This document shows, one piece after another, positions 14,890 through 23,869 of a DNA stretch of 64,000 bases. Both the position numbers and the translations under genes were made by a program. Position 1 is the stretch's first letter. Each line of letters begins with the position of its first letter. This DNA is from Pararhodobacter marinus (GTDB taxonomy: Bacteria > Pseudomonadota > Alphaproteobacteria > Rhodobacterales > Rhodobacteraceae). The DNA is taken from contig NZ_QEYD01000006.1 of the NCBI RefSeq assembly GCF_003122215.1, positions 248,001 through 312,000 on the forward strand, in the 5' to 3' direction. The notes beneath the pieces were generated by a model. That model worked only from the letters and a program-made list of their open reading frames with translations. It made no database searches and was not told where the DNA came from.

Positions 14890-15456
14890 TCAGAACAGCG
14901 TCACCGCATCGGGCTTGGCGCTGCGCGGCGGCGGTGGCGGAGGCGGTGGCGCGACGATGGCGGCATCCATCGCACCGCTGACATGGATAATGCGGACTTT
15001 GCCGGTTACCGGGTGGAAATTGATCCGTCTTGCATCCGTGCCGCCCAGGTCCTGCGCGCGCACCGGGAAATCTTCGGCGCGCAGATAGCGCAGGGCAAAT
15101 TCCGCGTTCTTGGGGCCGATATCGCCGAAGCGTCCGCTCATCCGCGATCCACCAAACACCTTGGCCTGCAGCGTCGAGCGGCTCGCCCCGCTCTTGAGGA
15201 GGTGATTGATCAGCAATTCCATCGCGTTGGCGCCGTATTTCAAACTCGTGGCCTCGCCGTCGCGGGCGTCTGCCAGAAGGTAATGGTTCATGCCGCCTAT
15301 CCGGCACGCCGGATCATAAAGACAGACCGACACGCATGAGCCCAGCACGGTTGACAGGACGAGTTCGGGATCCGACGAGACGAGATACTCACCGCGGATG
15401 ACGGGGACGGTCCGGGTTCGGTACCCTTCTGGCCAATTCTGGAACTGCTGTTTCAC
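14890..15456 (-). CDS. cheD: Chemoreceptor glutamine deamidase CheD
   Basis: 188 residues. CheD deamidates selected glutamines on chemoreceptors and in some bacteria interacts with CheC. The catalytic core is visible as VLGSCVSVCLYD (Cys41) and GGMNHYLL (His58), 17 residues apart as in characterised CheD. The conserved KVFGGSRM and GPKNAEF segments follow. The C terminus ends in an unusual run of eight prolines before RSAKPDAVTLF. The GTG start overlaps the cheB stop as GTGA, so translation is coupled to cheB. It is the last gene of the che operon. Confidence 0.93.
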   Translation of the reverse strand: MKQQFQNWPEGYRTRTVPVIRGEYLVSSDPELVLSTVLGSCVSVCLYDPACRIGGMNHYLLADARDGEATSLKYGANAMELLINHLLKSGASRSTLQAKVFGGSRMSGRFGDIGPKNAEFALRYLRAEDFPVRAQDLGGTDARRINFHPVTGKVRIIHVSGAMDAAIVAPPPPPPPPRSAKPDAVTLF

Positions 15457-16436
15457 GCTTTTACCTTTTGCCTGGCATTCAGAAGGGCGGAGCCGATTGC
15501 CGAGAGGGGAAGCTCGCGCTCGGCCGCGCCGATCTGCACCGCGTAGCCGGGCATGCCATACACGACCGAGGTTTCGCGATCCTGAGCGATGGTCCGTGCC
15601 CCGGCCCGGCGCAGCGCCAGTAATCCCTCGGCCCCGTCGCGGCCCATTCCGGTCAGCAACGCCGCGGTCACGCGGTTGGCCATCGGCAGCGCCGAGTGGA
15701 AAAGCGCGTCGACCGACGGGCGGTGCCCCGAGATCCGGGCGCCGGATTGCAACGTGCAGGCATGCGGCGCGCGGGGGGCGAGGACGAGATGATGGTCAGC
15801 GCCCGGTGCCAGCAGCACCCGGCCGGGCGTCGGCACATCGCCGTCGCCGGCCTCGCGCACTTCGGGCGCGGCGTTGCGGTCGAGAAGCCGTGCAAGCCCG
15901 GCGCTGTAGGAGGCGCCGGTATGCTGCACGATCAGCGTCGGCGGACAATCCGCGGGGAACATATCGAGGATCGCAAGCAACGCGTCGATCCCTCCGGTCG
16001 AGGAGCCGATCAGGATAAGGCGCGACTCGCCGTCGTGACCCACCGAACGCAGCAGACCCGCGCTGGCCCGGGAAGGCGGTTGCGTTCCCGCGCCCACCGC
16101 CCGGTGGAGCCGGGCCAGAATGGCGTCGTCGGGTTGATCGGGATCAAGCAGGCGATCGGCACCGATGCCCCCGGCATGGGTGGACTGCCCCTTTGCCCGG
16201 AATGCCAGCCAGGCGACGCCCAGGGTGCGGAACAGCAGATCCATCATTTCGAATTCCGGCCGCGCGACCAGCGAGGCCGAAAGAATGACAAGTTGCGGGG
16301 GCCGATGTTCGACCGCGTTGAAGGTTTGCGTGAGATCGCTGCACAGGTCGGTCACGGCGATCCCGCGCAAGTCCGACAGCCGTTGCGCAAGGTGGCGGAG
16401 CGTTGTCTTGTCCGATTCAGCAAGGATTACCCGCAT
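15453..16436 (-). CDS. cheB: Chemotaxis methylesterase CheB with degenerate receiver domain
   Basis: 327 residues. The C-terminal half is a standard CheB methylesterase: GSSTGG (Ser146), VQHTG (His172) and TGMGRDGAEG (Asp267) form the triad that removes methyl groups from receptor glutamates. The N-terminal ~105 residues fit a receiver fold but have lost the phosphorylation pocket. Where CheB normally has LDVEMP there is VILSASLV, with Ser53 in the Asp position, and the acidic pair near the N terminus is reduced to AESD. Phosphorylation by CheA at the usual site is therefore impossible, and another mode of control is likely. Overlaps cheD by 4 nt. Confidence 0.92.
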   Translation of the reverse strand: MRVILAESDKTTLRHLAQRLSDLRGIAVTDLCSDLTQTFNAVEHRPPQLVILSASLVARPEFEMMDLLFRTLGVAWLAFRAKGQSTHAGGIGADRLLDPDQPDDAILARLHRAVGAGTQPPSRASAGLLRSVGHDGESRLILIGSSTGGIDALLAILDMFPADCPPTLIVQHTGASYSAGLARLLDRNAAPEVREAGDGDVPTPGRVLLAPGADHHLVLAPRAPHACTLQSGARISGHRPSVDALFHSALPMANRVTAALLTGMGRDGAEGLLALRRAGARTIAQDRETSVVYGMPGYAVQIGAAERELPLSAIGSALLNARQKVKA

Positions 16437-16465: not shown

Positions 16466-18868
16466 TTAAAAGTCGTGCCAGCGGCCGGAATTGGCGGCGA
16501 CGCCCAGCATGTCGTCGGTATCGGCCTCGGTGTCGCTGTCTGCGAGTTCCGCGCGCCAGGCATCCGTTGTATCGACCGGCACTGCCGGCAAGACGAACTC
16601 GGTCGTCTCAAGCGGTTCGGGCAACTCGGCTGCGTCGCTGTCGCGCGATGCGACGGACCGGCCGGTATCTGGCGCGATCTGGCCGTGCGCGGCGGTCCGG
16701 AATTGCCCGATGCGCTGATCCAGAGCCTCGGATTCGTGGCGCAGGGTCGTCGACGCGGCCGTGACCTCTTCAACCATGGCCGCGTTTTGCTGCGTGACCT
16801 GATCGAGCTGTGACACGCCGATATTGATCTCGTTCAGGCCGGCGCTCTGTTCGCGGGCGCCGGTGGCGATGGTGCCGATGAGGGTGTCGATATTACCGAC
16901 GCGCTCGATGATCATGGTCAGGGTGTCGCCCGCCCGTCCGACCAGATTGACGCCGGTCTCGACCTGTTCCGTGCTGCCGGTGATCAGCGTCTTGATCTGA
17001 CGGGCCGCATCGGAGGTGCGCTGGGCCAGCGCGCGGACCTCGGAGGCCACAACGGCGAAACCGCGCCCCGCATCGCCGGCGCGCGCGGCCTCGACCCCGG
17101 CATTGAGCGCAAGCAGGTTGGTCTGAAAGGCGATATCGTCGATCACGCCGATGATCTGCGAGATTTCGCTCGAGGATTTGCGGATCAGCGACATGGCCGA
17201 GACGGCTTCGGACACCACCAGGCCGCTTTTCTCGGCTTCCTTGCGCGCGTCGGCGACCGCCGCTTCGACTTCCGAGGCGCTGTCGGCGGCGGCGCGGACA
17301 CTCGCCGTCAGCTCGTCAAGCGCGGCGGCGGTTTCTTCAAGCGTGGCGGCCTGGCTTTCAGTGCGATGCGAGAGGTCGTCCGACGAGGCGCTGATCTCTT
17401 CCGCGCGCGCCCGGATCTCGGCGGCATTGGTGGAAATGGCGTGGATCAATCGCTCCATCGTTTCGACCGTCGCGTTGAAATCGATGCGCAAACTGTCGTA
17501 ATCCTGCGAGAAAGCGTGATCGAGCCTCAGATCCAGCCGGCCGCTGGCCAGCTCACGCAGCCCGCCGCGCAAGGCGGCAACAACCTGAGATTGCTCTTCG
17601 CGCGCGGCTTCCTGCGCCGCGCGGGATTTTCGCGCCTGCAGAAGCTGATCGCGGAAAGAGGCCAGGGCACGGGACAAGCCGCCGATCTCGTCGTGGCGCT
17701 CGGTGCCGGTGACAGGGCTTGTGAAATCCTCGTCGGCGATCCGGGTCATGGATTGCGCGAAGGCATTCAGAGGCCGGGTGATCGACCGTGCGACAAGGTA
17801 GCCGATGCCGAGTGAGGCGACGGTACAGAGCACGATGAAGATCGCCGCCCGCTGCACGAAGTCGCTCAACGCGGCGTAATGCGCGGCATGGTCGAGCTCG
17901 ACGACGACGGACATCGGAAAGCCGCGCGCTTCAAAACTGTGAACGGCGGCATCGACCGATGCGCCGCCGAGCCCCGGCGTGTCGGGGAAGAAGCGGGTTT
18001 CGGCATTGCGGGCAGCCGAGACCTGCGCGAGGTCGGGCAAGGGATCGAGCAAGGCCAGGTCGCTGTCGAGGGACAGGGTGCTGCGCAGCCGACCATCCGC
18101 GCCCAGCAGGTAAACGATATCCTCGGGGCCCAGCCCCGTCGCGGCACCGAGCGCGGCTTCGGCGGCGGCAAAGGATAGGCGGATGACGATCACGCCAAGC
18201 GCGGGTGCCTCGGGGTTGTCCCGATCAACCATGCGGCGGGCGATGAAAACGGCGGCTTCGGCACTGCCCGTGGTGGAGACTTCCACATCCGAACCGATAT
18301 TGCGGGGTGCCGGGCTGGCCATCGCTTCCCGCCAGATGCGGGTCAGAGGGGCGTCTGCGAAATCGTCGGATGCCAGAGACACGCCGAAATTGTCCCCTTT
18401 TTCGATGGAATAGATGACATCTCCCGACGGGGTGATGAGCAGCAGGTCCTGGTAGCCGAAAAGATCGCGATGGCGCGTCAGAAAACCATGAAACTGCTCA
18501 TGGACCGCTTCATAGGCCGGACGTGCCATGCTTGCGGTTGCCGTGCCGTCATAGGCGGCGCGGATATCGTCCAGCCATCCGGGCGCCTGCAGCGTGACCG
18601 CCTGCGTGAAAGCCTGCATGGCGGGCGGCGCCAGGGTTCCCTGTGCAAGATCGGCCGCCGCGCGGTGCATTGCCTCCAGCCACCGGCTGAAACTGGCCTG
18701 CGCCTGCGCCGCAGAACTGCGCGCCAGCTCCTCGACGCGGGTCTGGATATCGGCCCGGAACAACGTGTAGTAAAGCGCGCTCGAGGCGCCGAGCATCACC
18801 ACCAGGGCGATCACGATGAGGATCGGCAAGCGAAGGCTGATTCTGGTATTCGCAACAAGGCTGTACAT
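16466..18868 (-). CDS. Methyl-accepting chemotaxis protein with periplasmic sensor domain
   Basis: 800 residues. The first membrane helix ([21 protein letters not shown]) is at ~14-34. A periplasmic domain of about 290 residues follows, probably a double-Cache type ([36 protein letters not shown]). Then come a second helix ([17 protein letters not shown]), a HAMP domain ([14 protein letters not shown]) and a methyl-accepting signalling domain. The receptor tip reads [23 protein letters not shown]. The last five residues, RWHDF, resemble the CheR/CheB-docking pentapeptide found at the end of high-abundance receptors (xWxxF). AAGGA lies upstream of the ATG. The ligand is unknown. Confidence 0.92.
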
Positions 18869-18949: not shown

Positions 18950-19300
18950 CTAGAAGAGTTCGATCAACGGGCTGTTGCCCGGCTGTGGGGGTGGTCTGCC
19001 TTCGACGGCGGCCATGAAGCGGCGCCGGTTCCGCTCGAGCAGGAGCCCGGCAAGGGGCAGGGAATTCTCCGACATCAGGCCGGGCGGAAGATCCTTTGCC
19101 AGCTGCTGCGTGACATGTTCGAGGTCCTGCAGTATCTGCACGGCGAGGTCGAAATCCTGCGCTGCGCGCCGCGTTTCGGGCGTCGTGGGGGCAACGATCA
19201 TCGAGGCCTCGTAGCGCAGGAGCATCTGTCGGATCTCCTCAAGCGCATCGGAGAGCGAGGCGAGCAAGGGGGGGATCGGTAGAGGGGCCGAGAGGCTCAT
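18950..19300 (-). CDS. Small helical che-operon protein, candidate CheZ/CheT-like phosphatase
   Basis: 116 residues, predicted almost entirely helical. Residues 48-66 read QDFDLAVQILQDLEHVTQQ. This contains a DxxxQ motif (Asp51, Gln55) on an amphipathic helix, in a setting close to the catalytic AQDFQDLTGQ helix of enterobacterial CheZ as I recall it. CheZ and the alphaproteobacterial CheT use such Asp/Gln residues to dephosphorylate CheY-P. The start overlaps the cheY stop by 4 nt (ATGA), so it is made together with CheY. The hydrophobic C-terminal end (GNSPLIELF) could be a CheY-binding tail, as CheZ also binds CheY through its C terminus. The phosphatase role is an inference; no database match was run. 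Confidence 0.6.
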   Translation of the reverse strand: MSLSAPLPIPPLLASLSDALEEIRQMLLRYEASMIVAPTTPETRRAAQDFDLAVQILQDLEHVTQQLAKDLPPGLMSENSLPLAGLLLERNRRRFMAAVEGRPPPQPGNSPLIELF

Positions 19301-19683
19301 AGCTTGCCCACGACCGCTTCGATCGAGGCCTTCAGGCTGGGCGTGGTAAAGGGTTTCTTGATCAGGTTGTTGAGCCCGAGTTTCACCCCGCGTTCGAGGA
19401 TCTCCTGGCTGGGCGAGCCGGTGATCAGGATGAAGCCGATCTTCGCGGTCATCTTGTTGGCGCGCAGCCTTTCAAGCAGATCGAGCCCGCTCATGCCCGG
19501 CATGTTGTAATCGCTGATCACCAGATGCGCAGGATTCACCGCCAGGCGGTTGAGCGCCTCGGGGCCCGAGGTCTGGAAGTCGATATTCTTGATGCCGATC
19601 TCTTCGAGGCTTTGCGTCATCAGGCCCCGACTTACCGACATATCGTCAACGATCATGACTTTCAGAGCGTCTTTCAGAGCCAT
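19297..19683 (-). CDS. cheY: CheY response regulator (operon copy 2)
   Basis: 128 residues, a stand-alone receiver domain. The phosphorylation pocket is intact: Asp13/Asp14 in MIVDDMS, acceptor Asp58 in VISDYNMPGMSG, Thr88 in ILITGS, and the Lys in LIKKPF. There is no output domain, so it should act by binding the flagellar switch or serve as a phosphate sink. It lies between cheR and the candidate phosphatase gene, overlapping the latter by 4 nt. Confidence 0.93.
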   Translation of the reverse strand: MALKDALKVMIVDDMSVSRGLMTQSLEEIGIKNIDFQTSGPEALNRLAVNPAHLVISDYNMPGMSGLDLLERLRANKMTAKIGFILITGSPSQEILERGVKLGLNNLIKKPFTTPSLKASIEAVVGKL

Positions 19684-19695
19684 TGTCTATCCGTT

Positions 19696-20565
19696 TCAAT
19701 TCTTCGCGTTGATCTTGCGATACGAGGTGATGCCGATGGGGCTGAGACCGAGCTCGGGCGGGTTGGGGATGCGTTCGGAATGCCCGATGAAAAGCAGCCC
19801 ATCGGGGGCGAGGATCTCCGAAAACCGCTCCCACAAGGTTTTCTGCGTCGCCTTGTCGAAATAGATGGCCACGTTCCGGCACATGACGATCTGGAACTGC
19901 CCGGCGAAGGGCCAGGGCTGGACCAGGTTGAGGCGGCGAAAGGTGATGAGTGCCTTCAATTCCGGGCGCACGGCGATATCGCGCGCGGCAGGCTCCTGCG
20001 CCGGGTCAAAGACCCGGGCTTTCAGCTGCGGGGTCGGGAACGCGGCGGTCTTCGCCTCGTAGAGCCCCGATTGCGCTGTCTTGAGCACTCCGAGATCGAT
20101 ATCCGTCGCAAGAATTTTCACATCATAGCGCGCGGCATCGGGCAGAACGGCGAGCAGCGAGGCGGCGAGAGAATAGGGTTCCTGCCCCGACGAGCAGCCG
20201 GCCGACCAGATCCGGATTCTGTGCCCGGCTTTCGCCCGGGCGGCCAGAGATGCGGCGAATTCCGTTTCGATCGTCTCAAAATGATGGGTTTCGCGGTAGA
20301 AATGCGTGACATTCGTGGTCAGCGCTGAAACGAAATGCTCGCTCTCGACGGTGTCGCCGGATTCGATGACAGCGCAATAGGCCTTGAAGTCAGTCAGCCC
20401 GACGGCCTTGAGCCGGCGGCCCAGTCGCGAGCGGATAAGAGGTTTCTTCGCAGGGTCAAGATTGAGACCCCAGCCGGCCTTGGCGATCCGGGCGATACGC
20501 TGGAAATCGTCCTCGGAAAGCTGCGCCTCGCCGGTATCGAGGATTGGAGGCCCGTCGATGCTCAT
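19696..20565 (-). CDS. cheR: Chemotaxis methyltransferase CheR
   Basis: 289 residues. The N-terminal all-helical domain (LSEDDFQRIARIAKAGWGLNL, KKPLIRSRLGRRL) is followed by the SAM-binding fold with RIWSAGCSSGQEPYSLA, ILATDIDLGVL and IVMCRNVAIYFDK. CheR methylates receptor glutamates, opposing CheB. No C-terminal TPR extension is present. Its start codon overlaps the cheW stop by 4 nt. Confidence 0.95.
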   Translation of the reverse strand: MSIDGPPILDTGEAQLSEDDFQRIARIAKAGWGLNLDPAKKPLIRSRLGRRLKAVGLTDFKAYCAVIESGDTVESEHFVSALTTNVTHFYRETHHFETIETEFAASLAARAKAGHRIRIWSAGCSSGQEPYSLAASLLAVLPDAARYDVKILATDIDLGVLKTAQSGLYEAKTAAFPTPQLKARVFDPAQEPAARDIAVRPELKALITFRRLNLVQPWPFAGQFQIVMCRNVAIYFDKATQKTLWERFSEILAPDGLLFIGHSERIPNPPELGLSPIGITSYRKINAKN

Positions 20566-21029
20566 GCGGCTTCCTCTCCGTCATTGGCGAAGAGCGCCGA
20601 GAGGTCGAGCACCCGCAGCATGACGTCCTCGACCGGCAATAGCCCGGTCACATGCGAGGTGCCGCCGTCGCGCCGCAACGTGGGGTTGGGACGGATGGTT
20701 TCGCTGTTCACAGACAGGATTTCCGAGACGGAATCGACAAGCAGCCCCATGATCCGGCTGCCGATGGCGACCACGACCACGATGTTGCGCGACCCGATTT
20801 CTGTCGTGCCCAACCCCAGCCGGCCGGCCAGATCGATGATCGGGATCACCGCGCCGCGCAGGTTCATCACCCCGAGGACCGAATCTTCGGAGAAGGGGAG
20901 CGCGGTGACCTGGCTCCAGCGCCGGATCTCGCGGATCGAGGTGATCTCGACGCAGAATCCCTGGCCACCGGCCGAGAGAGAGACGAATTCGATGATGTTG
21001 CCGCGGTCGGTCGTGTCGTCGTCGGTCAT
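20562..21029 (-). CDS. cheW: Chemotaxis coupling protein CheW
   Basis: 155 residues covering one CheW domain: GFCVEITSIREIRRW, FSEDSVLGVMNLRGAVIPIIDLAGRLG, IGSRIMGLLVDSVSEIL. It links receptors to CheA in the signalling array. It starts one base after the cheA stop codon and overlaps cheR by 4 nt. Confidence 0.94.
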   Translation of the reverse strand: MTDDDTTDRGNIIEFVSLSAGGQGFCVEITSIREIRRWSQVTALPFSEDSVLGVMNLRGAVIPIIDLAGRLGLGTTEIGSRNIVVVVAIGSRIMGLLVDSVSEILSVNSETIRPNPTLRRDGGTSHVTGLLPVEDVMLRVLDLSALFANDGEEAA

Positions 21030-21030
21030 G

Positions 21031-23181
21031 TCAGGCCTCCAGTTCGATGAGGGGACGGTTGTTGCGGCGGGGCGAGACCAGTTCCACCAGCGCTTCGGAA
21101 TCGATGATCAGGGCGATCTTGCCATCGCCGAGGATTGTGGCCGCGGCTATGCCGTTGACGGCGCCGTAATTGCCTTCGAGGCTCTTGATCACCACCTGCC
21201 GCTGGTCCTGGATCGAATCGACGGCGACCGCGATGCTGGTCCCGCCCGCGTCGAGCAGGACATAGGACCGGTCGCGCTTTTGCGAGCCGGCACTATGCAT
21301 GCCGAACGTCTTCGCGAGATCGACCACGGGGACATAGGCGCCGCGCACCGAAAGCACGCGTTCGCCCGTGCCGATTTCGTGAATGTCCGAGCGACTGGGG
21401 CGAACGGTCTCGACCACGCTGGCCAAGGGGAGAACCATGGTCTCTTCGCCGACGCCGATCACCATCCCGTCAAGCACGGCAAGCGTCAGCGGCAGCGAAA
21501 TGGTAAAGGTCGAACCCTGGCCATGGACGCTGGAAATGCCGACCTTGCCGCCGAGCGAGGCAATAGTCGTCTTGACCACATCCATGCCCACGCCACGGCC
21601 GGACAGATTGGTGATGCTGTCGGCGGTCGAGAACCCCGGCGCGAAGAGCAGGTTGTCGATTTCGGCCTCGGTCAGCTTGGCGTCGGGAGGCACGAGCCCC
21701 TTGTCCATGGCCTTGGCGAGAATGCGTTCGCGGTCGAGCCCGGCACCGTCATCGGCAACTTCGATCACCACATTGCCCGAGCGATGCGCGGCGGTCAGGC
21801 GAACCTTGCCGATCTCGGGCTTGCCCGCGGCGCGGCGTTTTTCGGCCGTTTCCAAGCCGTGATCGACGGAATTGCGCAGCATATGCGTCAGCGGATCAGC
21901 GAGGCGCTCGAGGATCGTCTTGTCAATCTCGGTGGTTTCGCCTTCGCTGATGAAATTGACGGGCTTGCCGGTTGCGTCCGCCGCTTCGCGCACGACACGG
22001 CCCATGCGCTGAAACAGCGTCTTCACCGGCTGTGCGCGGATCGACATCACGCCTTCCTGGATTTCGCGTGCGAGGTAGCGGTAGTCGTCGAGCGCGGCCA
22101 TGATCTCGGAATCGTTGCCGACGCCGCAGCTTTCGAGTTTCTGGCTGATCACCGCATGATTGATGATCAGCTCGCCCACGCTGTTGATCAGCCGGTCGAC
22201 GCGTTCGGGATCGACGCGCAGGGTTGTCTGCACCGGGTTGGCCGCCCTGTTGGCGCCGCGCGGCGCTTGAGGAGACTTGTCGGTTGCTCGGAACGGGGCG
22301 ACACCCGTTTCGGGCGCAGCCGGGGCTTCGGGCGCTGGGGCAATATGGAGTTCAAATGCATGGGCCTGAGCCGAGGCCGTGGCGGGCTCTTCGGGGGCCG
22401 GGGCTGCGGACCAGTCGGCGTCGGCTTCACCCGGCAAGAGGGCGCGGATGTCGAGGTCGCACAAACCGGTGGCGAAGGCGAAGACGTCCCCGACCGCATC
22501 GGTCTCGGCGCCGCCGAGCAATCGCAGGTGCCAGGTCAGATATGCGCCGTCGAAGTCGAAAGCGTCGAGCGGGGGGACATCGCCTGTCTCGCAGCGCACG
22601 GCCAGGTCGCCCAGTTCGGCGAGCGCCGAGAGGAAACGCTGCGGCTCGTGGCCGTTGACATAGAAGGCAGCCAGCGGCTTGAAGCGGATGACGAGGCCCG
22701 TATCCGGCGCCGGGGCGTCATCGCTTTCCGGCACTTCGATCGGCAGAAGGGTAACGGGCGCGAAGACGAAGTCGGGTTCGGGCGGCGCATCGGCGGAGAC
22801 CGCCTTCGCGGTGGCTTCCAAGTCGGCGATCAGGTCACGGACCGGGTCGAGCGAGGCCGAGCCTTCCTGCCTTGTCGTATCGACCAGAACCGCCAGCGCG
22901 TCCGAGGCGCGGGTGATCAGGCGCAGCACGTCGGGTGTGATATCGAGCGCGTCCGAGCGGATCAGGTCGAGCACGGTTTCGTAGGCATGCGTGAAGGTGA
23001 CGAGGTCGGCATAGCCGAAGGCCCCCGCCGCGCCCTTGATCGAATGGACGGCGCGAAAGATCGCATGGATGGTTTCGCTGTCCCACGCGCCCGAGGCGAG
23101 CGCATCGAGACCTTCGGTCAGGTGTTCGATCAGCTCTTCGCATTCGGCGAAGAAGGTTTCGCGCAGGGAATCGTTGCTCAT
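21031..23181 (-). CDS. cheA: Chemotaxis histidine kinase CheA
   Basis: 716 residues from the ATG at 23181, which overlaps the cheY stop as ATGA; the longer frame to 23253 runs inside cheY. Domain order: HPt (AVHSIKGAAGAFG, phospho-His46), a long Ala/Pro-rich linker region that may hold a diverged P2, and the P3 dimerisation helices (RVDRLINSVGELIINHAVIS). These are followed by the HATPase domain (RNSVDHGLE, VADDGAGLDRE, GRGVGMDVV) and a C-terminal CheW-like domain. It autophosphorylates in response to receptors and passes phosphate to the two CheY proteins. CheB in this operon lacks an acceptor site. Confidence 0.95.
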   Translation of the reverse strand: MSNDSLRETFFAECEELIEHLTEGLDALASGAWDSETIHAIFRAVHSIKGAAGAFGYADLVTFTHAYETVLDLIRSDALDITPDVLRLITRASDALAVLVDTTRQEGSASLDPVRDLIADLEATAKAVSADAPPEPDFVFAPVTLLPIEVPESDDAPAPDTGLVIRFKPLAAFYVNGHEPQRFLSALAELGDLAVRCETGDVPPLDAFDFDGAYLTWHLRLLGGAETDAVGDVFAFATGLCDLDIRALLPGEADADWSAAPAPEEPATASAQAHAFELHIAPAPEAPAAPETGVAPFRATDKSPQAPRGANRAANPVQTTLRVDPERVDRLINSVGELIINHAVISQKLESCGVGNDSEIMAALDDYRYLAREIQEGVMSIRAQPVKTLFQRMGRVVREAADATGKPVNFISEGETTEIDKTILERLADPLTHMLRNSVDHGLETAEKRRAAGKPEIGKVRLTAAHRSGNVVIEVADDGAGLDRERILAKAMDKGLVPPDAKLTEAEIDNLLFAPGFSTADSITNLSGRGVGMDVVKTTIASLGGKVGISSVHGQGSTFTISLPLTLAVLDGMVIGVGEETMVLPLASVVETVRPSRSDIHEIGTGERVLSVRGAYVPVVDLAKTFGMHSAGSQKRDRSYVLLDAGGTSIAVAVDSIQDQRQVVIKSLEGNYGAVNGIAAATILGDGKIALIIDSEALVELVSPRRNNRPLIELEA

Positions 23182-23558
23182 CCCTTGTCGGCTCCCGTGA
23201 CCAGCTTGAGGATATCGACCAGCTGCCGATCCTCGAACGGTTTGACGATCCACCCGGTGGCGCCGAGACTCCGCGCCTTTTCCTTGAAATCGTTCGAATT
23301 CTCCGTTGTCAGGACAAGGATGGGCACGCGGCGGTTCGCATCGCCCCCGCGGATCGCGGCGATCACGCCGAAACCGTCGAGCTTGGGCATGTTGATGTCG
23401 GTGATGACCGCGTCGAAGCGCATGTTCTGAAAGGTGGAAACCCCGTCTTCGCCATCCACTGCGGTGGTCACGTCGAACCCGGCATCGACCAGCGTTTGCG
23501 TCACCAGCTGGCGGATGGTGCGGGAATCATCGATGGCGAGAATCGCTTTCTCGGTCAT
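23178..23558 (-). CDS. cheY: CheY response regulator (operon copy 1)
   Basis: 126 residues, a single receiver domain with Asp10/Asp11 (LAIDDSRTIRQ), acceptor Asp54 (VITDINMPKLDG), Thr in VLTTENS and the Lys in IVKPF. It is closer to classical CheY proteins encoded next to cheA than the second copy. It overlaps both neighbours by 4 nt. Confidence 0.93.
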   Translation of the reverse strand: MTEKAILAIDDSRTIRQLVTQTLVDAGFDVTTAVDGEDGVSTFQNMRFDAVITDINMPKLDGFGVIAAIRGGDANRRVPILVLTTENSNDFKEKARSLGATGWIVKPFEDRQLVDILKLVTGADKG

Positions 23559-23869
23559 GTCGGCGTCTCCGAGGTCAGGGGATCGGCATTCGGGCTGCCC
23601 GCGAGCAGCGTGGCCAGACCCAGCGCGATCAGGCTGTCACGGGCGGCGTCCGAGGCCGCGCCCAGATGCAGGTCGGCGCCCGCGGCGCGTGCGGCGCGGC
23701 GGGCGGCGAGCAAGAGCTGCGCAACCTGGGCCGGGATCGGTCCCGCCGATGCGGCGTCGATCACGACCCCTCGGGCGGCGCTGGTCCGAAGCGCTTCGAT
23801 CACGCCGAGGGGCGCGTCGGTCCAGGCATCGGGATCGAGAACGAGGTGGTCTGGGGCGGTATCGGCCAA
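23555..23869 (-). CDS. STAS-domain protein at head of che operon
   Basis: 104 residues that fit a STAS (anti-sigma-antagonist-like) fold: a VVIDAASAGPIPAQVAQLLLAARRAA helix-strand unit followed by GADLHLG and DSLIALGLATLL. Similar small STAS proteins open many alphaproteobacterial che operons; their role is not established. The start appears to be TTG (AAAGGTG upstream), which would lower translation. The stop overlaps the cheY start by 4 nt. Confidence 0.65.
   Translation of the reverse strand: MADTAPDHLVLDPDAWTDAPLGVIEALRTSAARGVVIDAASAGPIPAQVAQLLLAARRAARAAGADLHLGAASDAARDSLIALGLATLLAGSPNADPLTSETPT

Follow-up and report, generated by a model that had tools for sequence, protein, structure and literature searches.

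The window analysed here, a 64,000-nucleotide stretch of a Pararhodobacter marinus contig, carries a chemotaxis operon whose genes lie on the minus strand in the order STAS protein-cheY1-cheA-cheW-cheR-cheY2-X-mcp-cheB-cheD. The gene of interest, X (18950..19300, 116 aa), overlaps cheY2 (19297..19683) by ATGA. A sequence-only reading had described a helical protein of this length, coupled to cheY and carrying the motif QDFDLAVQ; the ORF is genuine, its start codon lies inside the cheY2 stop region, and the numbering of the motif is right (Q48 D49 F50 D51 L52 A53 V54 Q55; codons Q48-Q55 at 19136..19159, minus strand). The protein ends in a hydrophobic tail, PLIELF (18953..18970, minus strand), a candidate docking peptide. 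Identification of cheY2 is based on its ORF and Pfam match, with the CheY2 of 1P6Q as best PDB match, and the best PDB match of the cheR ORF (19696..20565, minus strand) is 1AF7, a chemotaxis receptor methyltransferase CheR. Further upstream, a cheW-like ORF (20562..21029) and a cheA-like ORF (21031..23253) are named from their positions and from the same gene order in two annotated relatives, followed by cheY1 (23178..23558; ORF and Pfam). The outermost gene (23555..23869) encodes a STAS-domain protein, CheS-like by domain and position, which matches Pfam STAS_2 below the cut-off (E 6e-4); a STAS protein is annotated at the same operon place in the two relatives. On the other side of X lie mcp (16466..18868; ORF and Pfam), with a pentapeptide-like end, cheB (15453..16436), in which Pfam recognises the methylesterase domain only and no receiver, and cheD (14890..15456; ORF and Pfam), whose product ends DAVTLF.

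The X protein of the window matches no Pfam family at E ≤ 1 and none in NCBIfam, where two matches (E 0.11 and 0.29) are regarded as chance. In two annotated records of relatives the gene is labelled hypothetical. In a plain protein search, X was detected in 6 of 60 genomes, its own among them; all six belong to its genus, which was represented by 18 of the genomes searched. The alignment of these six proteins keeps QDFDLAxQ and P-x-I-[DE]-L-F, with an extension after the latter in four. The X profile A1 gave matches in 12 of 395 genomes of the family and in 1 of 387 of the class, the own genome being counted in both. Ten of the family matches were weak; seven of these lie after cheY2, and the other three (L013, L017, L018), at loci without cheY2, were dropped. 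Given how fast the protein diverges, A1 greatly underestimates the number of family genomes with X, and the survey was therefore based on synteny.

The CheY2 of the window has matches at E ≤ 1e-25 in 164 of the 395 family genomes, its own included. The loci read comprised the 30 best-scoring ones, 60 spread down the listed ranking and those from the protein and profile searches, 105 in all; after subtraction of four duplicates and the three loci without cheY2, 98 slots remained, from 94 CheY2-matching genomes (that of the window excluded) and four genomes of the same genus found in the protein search. The other 69 CheY2-matching family genomes lie outside this sample. An X gene follows cheY2 in 95 of the 98 slots, with ORF lengths of 96-200 aa, and all 95 proteins contain Q-x-x-D-x-x-x-Q. 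In the remaining three slots (L060, L066, L086) cheB comes directly after cheY2, and the X profile finds no X elsewhere within those loci. It should be mentioned that, where open frames overlapped in the slot, the frame with the motif was chosen. A choice of frame blind to the motif (highest GC3) gives the motif in 90 of 98 slots; the eight misses are the three slots without X and five in which the wrong frame was picked, the motif being present in the other one. When the slot proteins were shuffled (500 shuffles), D...Q appeared in 35.7 of 98 on average, and Q..D...Q in 2.2 of 98 on average with a maximum of 8. The DxxxQ motif alone is thus not significant; its conservation across X proteins is. 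X is distributed much more widely in the family than similarity search shows.

Alignment A2 contains 95 rows, the window protein and 94 of the 95 slot proteins, L104 being omitted because its start is uncertain. Pairwise identities have a median of 21%, and clustering at 40% identity leaves 67 groups. No columns are invariant except Met1, Q48, D51 and Q55; the next best are F116 (73 F, 5 W and 3 L among the 81 rows with a residue) and L88 (84 of 95). Non-conservation of D51 and Q55 among orthologues, named in the sequence-only reading as a reason to abandon its proposal, did not occur. The resemblance of AQDF to the catalytic stretch of CheZ, to which that reading had also pointed, holds in the genus of the window and fails in the wider family, where D49 and F50 are not conserved, though Q48 is. 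As judged from A2, Q48 belongs to the signature beside D51 and Q55, and Q-x-x-D-x-x-x-Q is the sharper motif. Three polar residues fixed at i, i+3 and i+7 of one helix amid such fast drift likely form an active site.

When genomes were scanned with the CheY2 sequence of 1P6Q, 79 other loci were recovered besides that of S. meliloti 4H41 (100% identity). In the S. meliloti locus cheB, cheY2 and cheD are followed by a 124-aa protein that contains VLQGIDLAVQ and ends GDFEAF. This protein was identified as CheT by its position, its motif and the description in a review (PMC12654446), not by accession. According to that review, S. meliloti CheT has a DXXXQ motif and a predicted structure highly similar to CheZ, enhances the dephosphorylation of one of two CheYs and not of the other, and occurs in a complex with CheR. 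CheT is found in 80 of 80 Rhizobiaceae loci; these proteins were selected for their similarity to that of S. meliloti, blind to the motif, and all 80 have Q..D...Q. A CheT profile (A3) made from 24 of these was aligned with A2 by hhalign, and the two match end to end over 117 columns (probability 98.8; E 8.4e-17, a pairwise value that is not database-calibrated), with the D, the Q and the tail in register and an identity of 15% in the aligned region. The idea of a CheT-type protein is borne out by this profile match, the common motif, the operon setting and the common tail, and assignment of X to the recently described CheT family is supported. X and the CheT of S. meliloti and other Rhizobiaceae share Q..D...Q, a similar length, a hydrophobic C-terminal tail and a che cluster with cheY2 and cheD. 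A second cheY, present in the window by ORF and Pfam, is also described for the S. meliloti cluster in PMC8429497. They differ in gene position, X being coupled to cheY2 ahead of mcp-cheB-cheD whereas S. meliloti cheT follows cheD, and in the tail itself, IELF in X vs FEAF or FDFF in CheT.

Proteins of this kind also occur elsewhere in the class. Among 30 CheD loci of class genomes, the X profile found proteins with Q..D...Q in five, three clearly (L137, L138 and L134; E 1e-12 to 2e-8) and two weakly (L135 and L110; 3e-4 and 2e-3); with the CheT profile, L137 and L138 are recovered too, and L134 weakly. CheT-like proteins are therefore not confined to Rhizobiaceae and the family of the window. 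A literature search, weak in its poor coverage of subscription journals, returned no recognisable paper on CheT in Rhodobacterales. The R. sphaeroides operon cheOp1 is said to contain a 'cheX' (PMC7277832). X thus adds to a known family; what is new is the place of Q48 in the signature, the wider family distribution and the idea about the tail set out below.

AlphaFold, run with the 95-row alignment, gave a model of pLDDT 83.7 and pTM 0.72; it replaced an initial run with 6 sequences (pLDDT 60.9). The model agrees with the helical nature expected earlier. It has helices at 9-34, 41-70 and 89-100; the first two form a hairpin, whose second helix bears the D51/Q55 motif, and the motif falls within two ten-residue blocks of pLDDT 84 and 93. 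In the last nine residues, tail included, pLDDT is below 50. At E ≤ 10 Foldseek returned 95 matches, of which none reaches E ≤ 0.001; no CheZ is among the 50 matches listed, which all have E > 1 and are mostly helical hairpins or bundles (among others Esx/WXG and PE proteins, histidine kinases and interleukin-4). The predicted hairpin and short third helix would be compatible with a CheZ-like action as a dimer, without showing such action. Searches of PDB sequences with A1, A2 and A3 turned up helical but unrelated proteins, the best of which, keratin (E 5e-4), was rejected as coiled-coil noise.

The tail recurs in X, in CheT and in CheD. A hydrophobic C-terminal peptide such as VELF, IDLF or EIQWF stands at or near the end of 79 of the 95 X proteins, 63 of them recognised by rule and 16 by eye (five of the latter with a longer extension after the motif), and 16 proteins are without it. 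CheT ends GD[FIL][DE]xF in 78 of 80 proteins, and GAFEAF and GEFDFF in the remaining two. CheD ends EFF in all 80 Rhizobiaceae; among 41 CheD proteins from other loci, that of the window included, 38 end in LF with at most one further residue and the rest in LELL or TVFF. Of 28 CheD proteins recognised in 30 loci that partly overlap with these, 27 have such an LF-type end. It is noted that the CheD end (14893-14910 in the window) is mostly [VI][ETD]LF or [IV]EFF across the alphaproteobacterial loci, the same kind of sequence as in CheT and X. The likeness of these tails suggests a common docking partner and a common docking peptide on X, CheT and alphaproteobacterial CheD. A targeted literature search found no paper on this likeness. 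We know of no report of a C-terminal tail common to CheT or X and CheD.

CheZ acts by inserting an acidic and an amide side chain into the active site of CheY, the glutamine orienting the attacking water. Since X is homologous to S. meliloti CheT, as characterised in the review, we infer its function from that protein: X is quite probably this organism's CheT, a small protein of helical structure that would hasten the dephosphorylation of a CheY. Made together with CheY2, it would insert D51 and Q55, one helical turn apart, into the CheY active site, where Q55 would orient the attacking water; these two residues are equated with the CheZ pair by the analogy of their spacing. Q48, on the same face of the helix (i, i+3, i+7), may complete the contact with CheY. 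A linker would then lead to the hydrophobic IELF peptide, which may dock X to a partner, with the adaptation enzymes as first candidates and CheY as second. The adaptation enzymes are placed first because CheD has a similar tail and because S. meliloti CheT is reported to bind CheR. The coupling to cheY2 hints at CheY2 as the substrate or at matched amounts of the two proteins, and at no more.

A different use of the same surface is conceivable. X could be a relative of CheT devoid of phosphatase activity, an adaptor that holds CheY2 together with CheR (or CheD or CheB), with the polar stripe as its binding surface. The tail common to X and CheD, the CheT-CheR complex reported in PMC12654446, and the extreme divergence outside the invariant stripe would all fit such an adaptor. 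However, an invariant Asp and Gln with the spacing of CheZ are what a water-activating site requires, and the related S. meliloti CheT is reported there to be active; we consider the adaptor unlikely.

The proposed catalytic residues also raise the question of whether X is a divergent true CheZ, as its local likeness (AQDF-DL..Q to AQDFQDLTGQ) and the hydrophobic tail at both C-termini might suggest. The comparison speaks strongly against it. Thirty loci yielded 28 CheZ ORFs, and a CheZ profile (A4) was made from 20 of them; against it, neither X (E 0.12) nor CheT (E 0.43) gives a match in hhalign. At E ≤ 0.02 the 95 members together match 18 Pfam families, CheZ (PF04344) not being one of them, and the kinship to CheZ considered in the sequence-only reading is not supported. 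In the genome of the window CheZ was not found, the E. coli control being positive. A4 keeps Q143, D144, T146, G147 and Q148, whereas X keeps only Q, D and Q, at another spacing; the D-x-x-x-Q spacing is common to both proteins, and probably the chemistry as well, but the flanking residues differ. Moreover, X is about half the size of CheZ, and the listed fold matches hold no CheZ. That X is a true CheZ is thus very improbable, and its likeness to CheZ, as judged from these profiles, is local and mechanistic, not one of kinship. The CheC/CheX/FliY phosphatases, whose motif is ExxN, have the same job as that proposed for X, and they have no Pfam match in X (E ≤ 1) or in the 95 members (E ≤ 0.02). 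The Pfam matches that do occur are to scattered helical families with one or two X members each (the best Snapin/Pallidin, E 1e-4, in one member) and are put down to coiled-coil noise. Least credible of all is a phosphotransfer (HPt-like) or unrelated helical protein standing in the operon by chance: helical hairpins are common and the fold matches listed all have E > 1, but A2 has no invariant or near-invariant His, unlike what an HPt phospho-acceptor requires, the slot and the motif are retained in 95 of 98 cases, and X is homologous to CheT.

With X taken as a CheT, its tail may be considered further. The like tail of CheD makes a partner other than, or besides, CheY plausible. CheR would be the first candidate, because CheT is reported to bind it and because the tail resembles the C-terminal pentapeptides of receptors (NWETF, docking CheR/CheB), being likewise short, acidic-hydrophobic and F-ending, as in the DFEAF of S. 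meliloti CheT. As described in PMC7390727, these pentapeptides mostly have W at position 2, with F at position 5 and acidic residues elsewhere. The receptors at the loci end WEDF, WEEF, WADF, WQDF or WHDF, whereas in the tails of X and CheD position 2 is mostly V or I and the residue before F mostly L. The mcp product of the window ends RWHDF (16469-16483), the only WxxF end seen among the six MCP matches of the genome; L226 was read unreliably in this respect.

Three comparisons bear on the partner of the tail. Loss of the tail does not track loss of CheD, which is present in 75 of 80 genomes searched, including 15 of 16 with a tail-less X; where the CheD locus of such a tail-less-X genome could be read, CheD has retained its own tail (7 of 7). 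A long beta-loop marks the pentapeptide-binding CheRs, according to PMC3062574. Genomes with and without the tail are not told apart by the length of this loop (measurable in 59 and 10 CheRs, respectively). Aligned with the CheR of the window, Salmonella CheR is gapless at the beta-loop, and methyltransferase 1 of 5Y4R, which we take to be P. aeruginosa CheR1, has gaps of 3 residues in all. Ruegeria sp. TM1040 has an X without a clear tail, yet a receptor ending LWQDF, which argues against a strict need of CheR as partner. Taken together, these sequence comparisons do not single out CheR. On the TM1040 megaplasmid (L139, 7389-14384), the 6.6 kb that follow X (TM1040_RS01440) carry no annotated cheB or cheD, in a gene table that is incomplete.

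We tentatively raise the possibility, speculative as it is, that the CheT and CheD tails are one docking peptide, [G/D]-x-[V/I/F]-[E/D/T]-[L/F]-F, which would compete with receptor pentapeptides for a single pocket on an adaptation enzyme, CheR first and CheB second, and so couple termination of the signal to adaptation. The common tail offers a testable link between the two processes, and the three residues Q48, D51 and Q55 together with one tail peptide are defined targets for mutation, for instance in Ruegeria sp. TM1040 or Phaeobacter inhibens. For rhizobia, the main explanation of how CheY-P is switched off in alphaproteobacteria that lack CheZ has been a phosphate sink (CheY1 and CheS; PMC8429497); a CheT-type protein is now placed after cheY2 in 95 of 98 sampled slots of the family of the window. 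The STAS protein upstream of cheY1 (23555-23869) resembles S. meliloti CheS in domain and operon place, and the operon may combine the CheS sink route with CheT.

Two further features of the genome and the operon are recorded here. The genome has six matches to flagellar rod genes, of which the two listed lie on contig C30, the window being on contig C27; FliM (PF02154) was not found in it, although these rod genes are present, and the genome perhaps encodes a divergent FliM. The second feature concerns CheB. If the tail proposal were true, coupling through CheT might replace the missing feedback from CheA to CheB where the CheB receiver looks degenerate, as in the window. The receiver-like N-terminus of the CheB there (15453-16436) appears by eye to be degenerate and to have lost the acidic pair; Pfam was run on this CheB only. 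Degenerate-looking receivers are also seen in CheB of L021, L024, L029, L033, L038, L049, L052, L055, L061, L067, L073, L078, L092, L245, L248 and L251; the phospho-acceptor Asp is lost in many of these proteins and apparently retained in some, e.g. L052 and L078. CheB may be uncoupled from CheA in these operons, to judge from such sequences. The CheB of the three X-less loci (L060, L066, L086) has no receiver, and the receivers of L014, L015 and S. meliloti (L141) look intact by eye.
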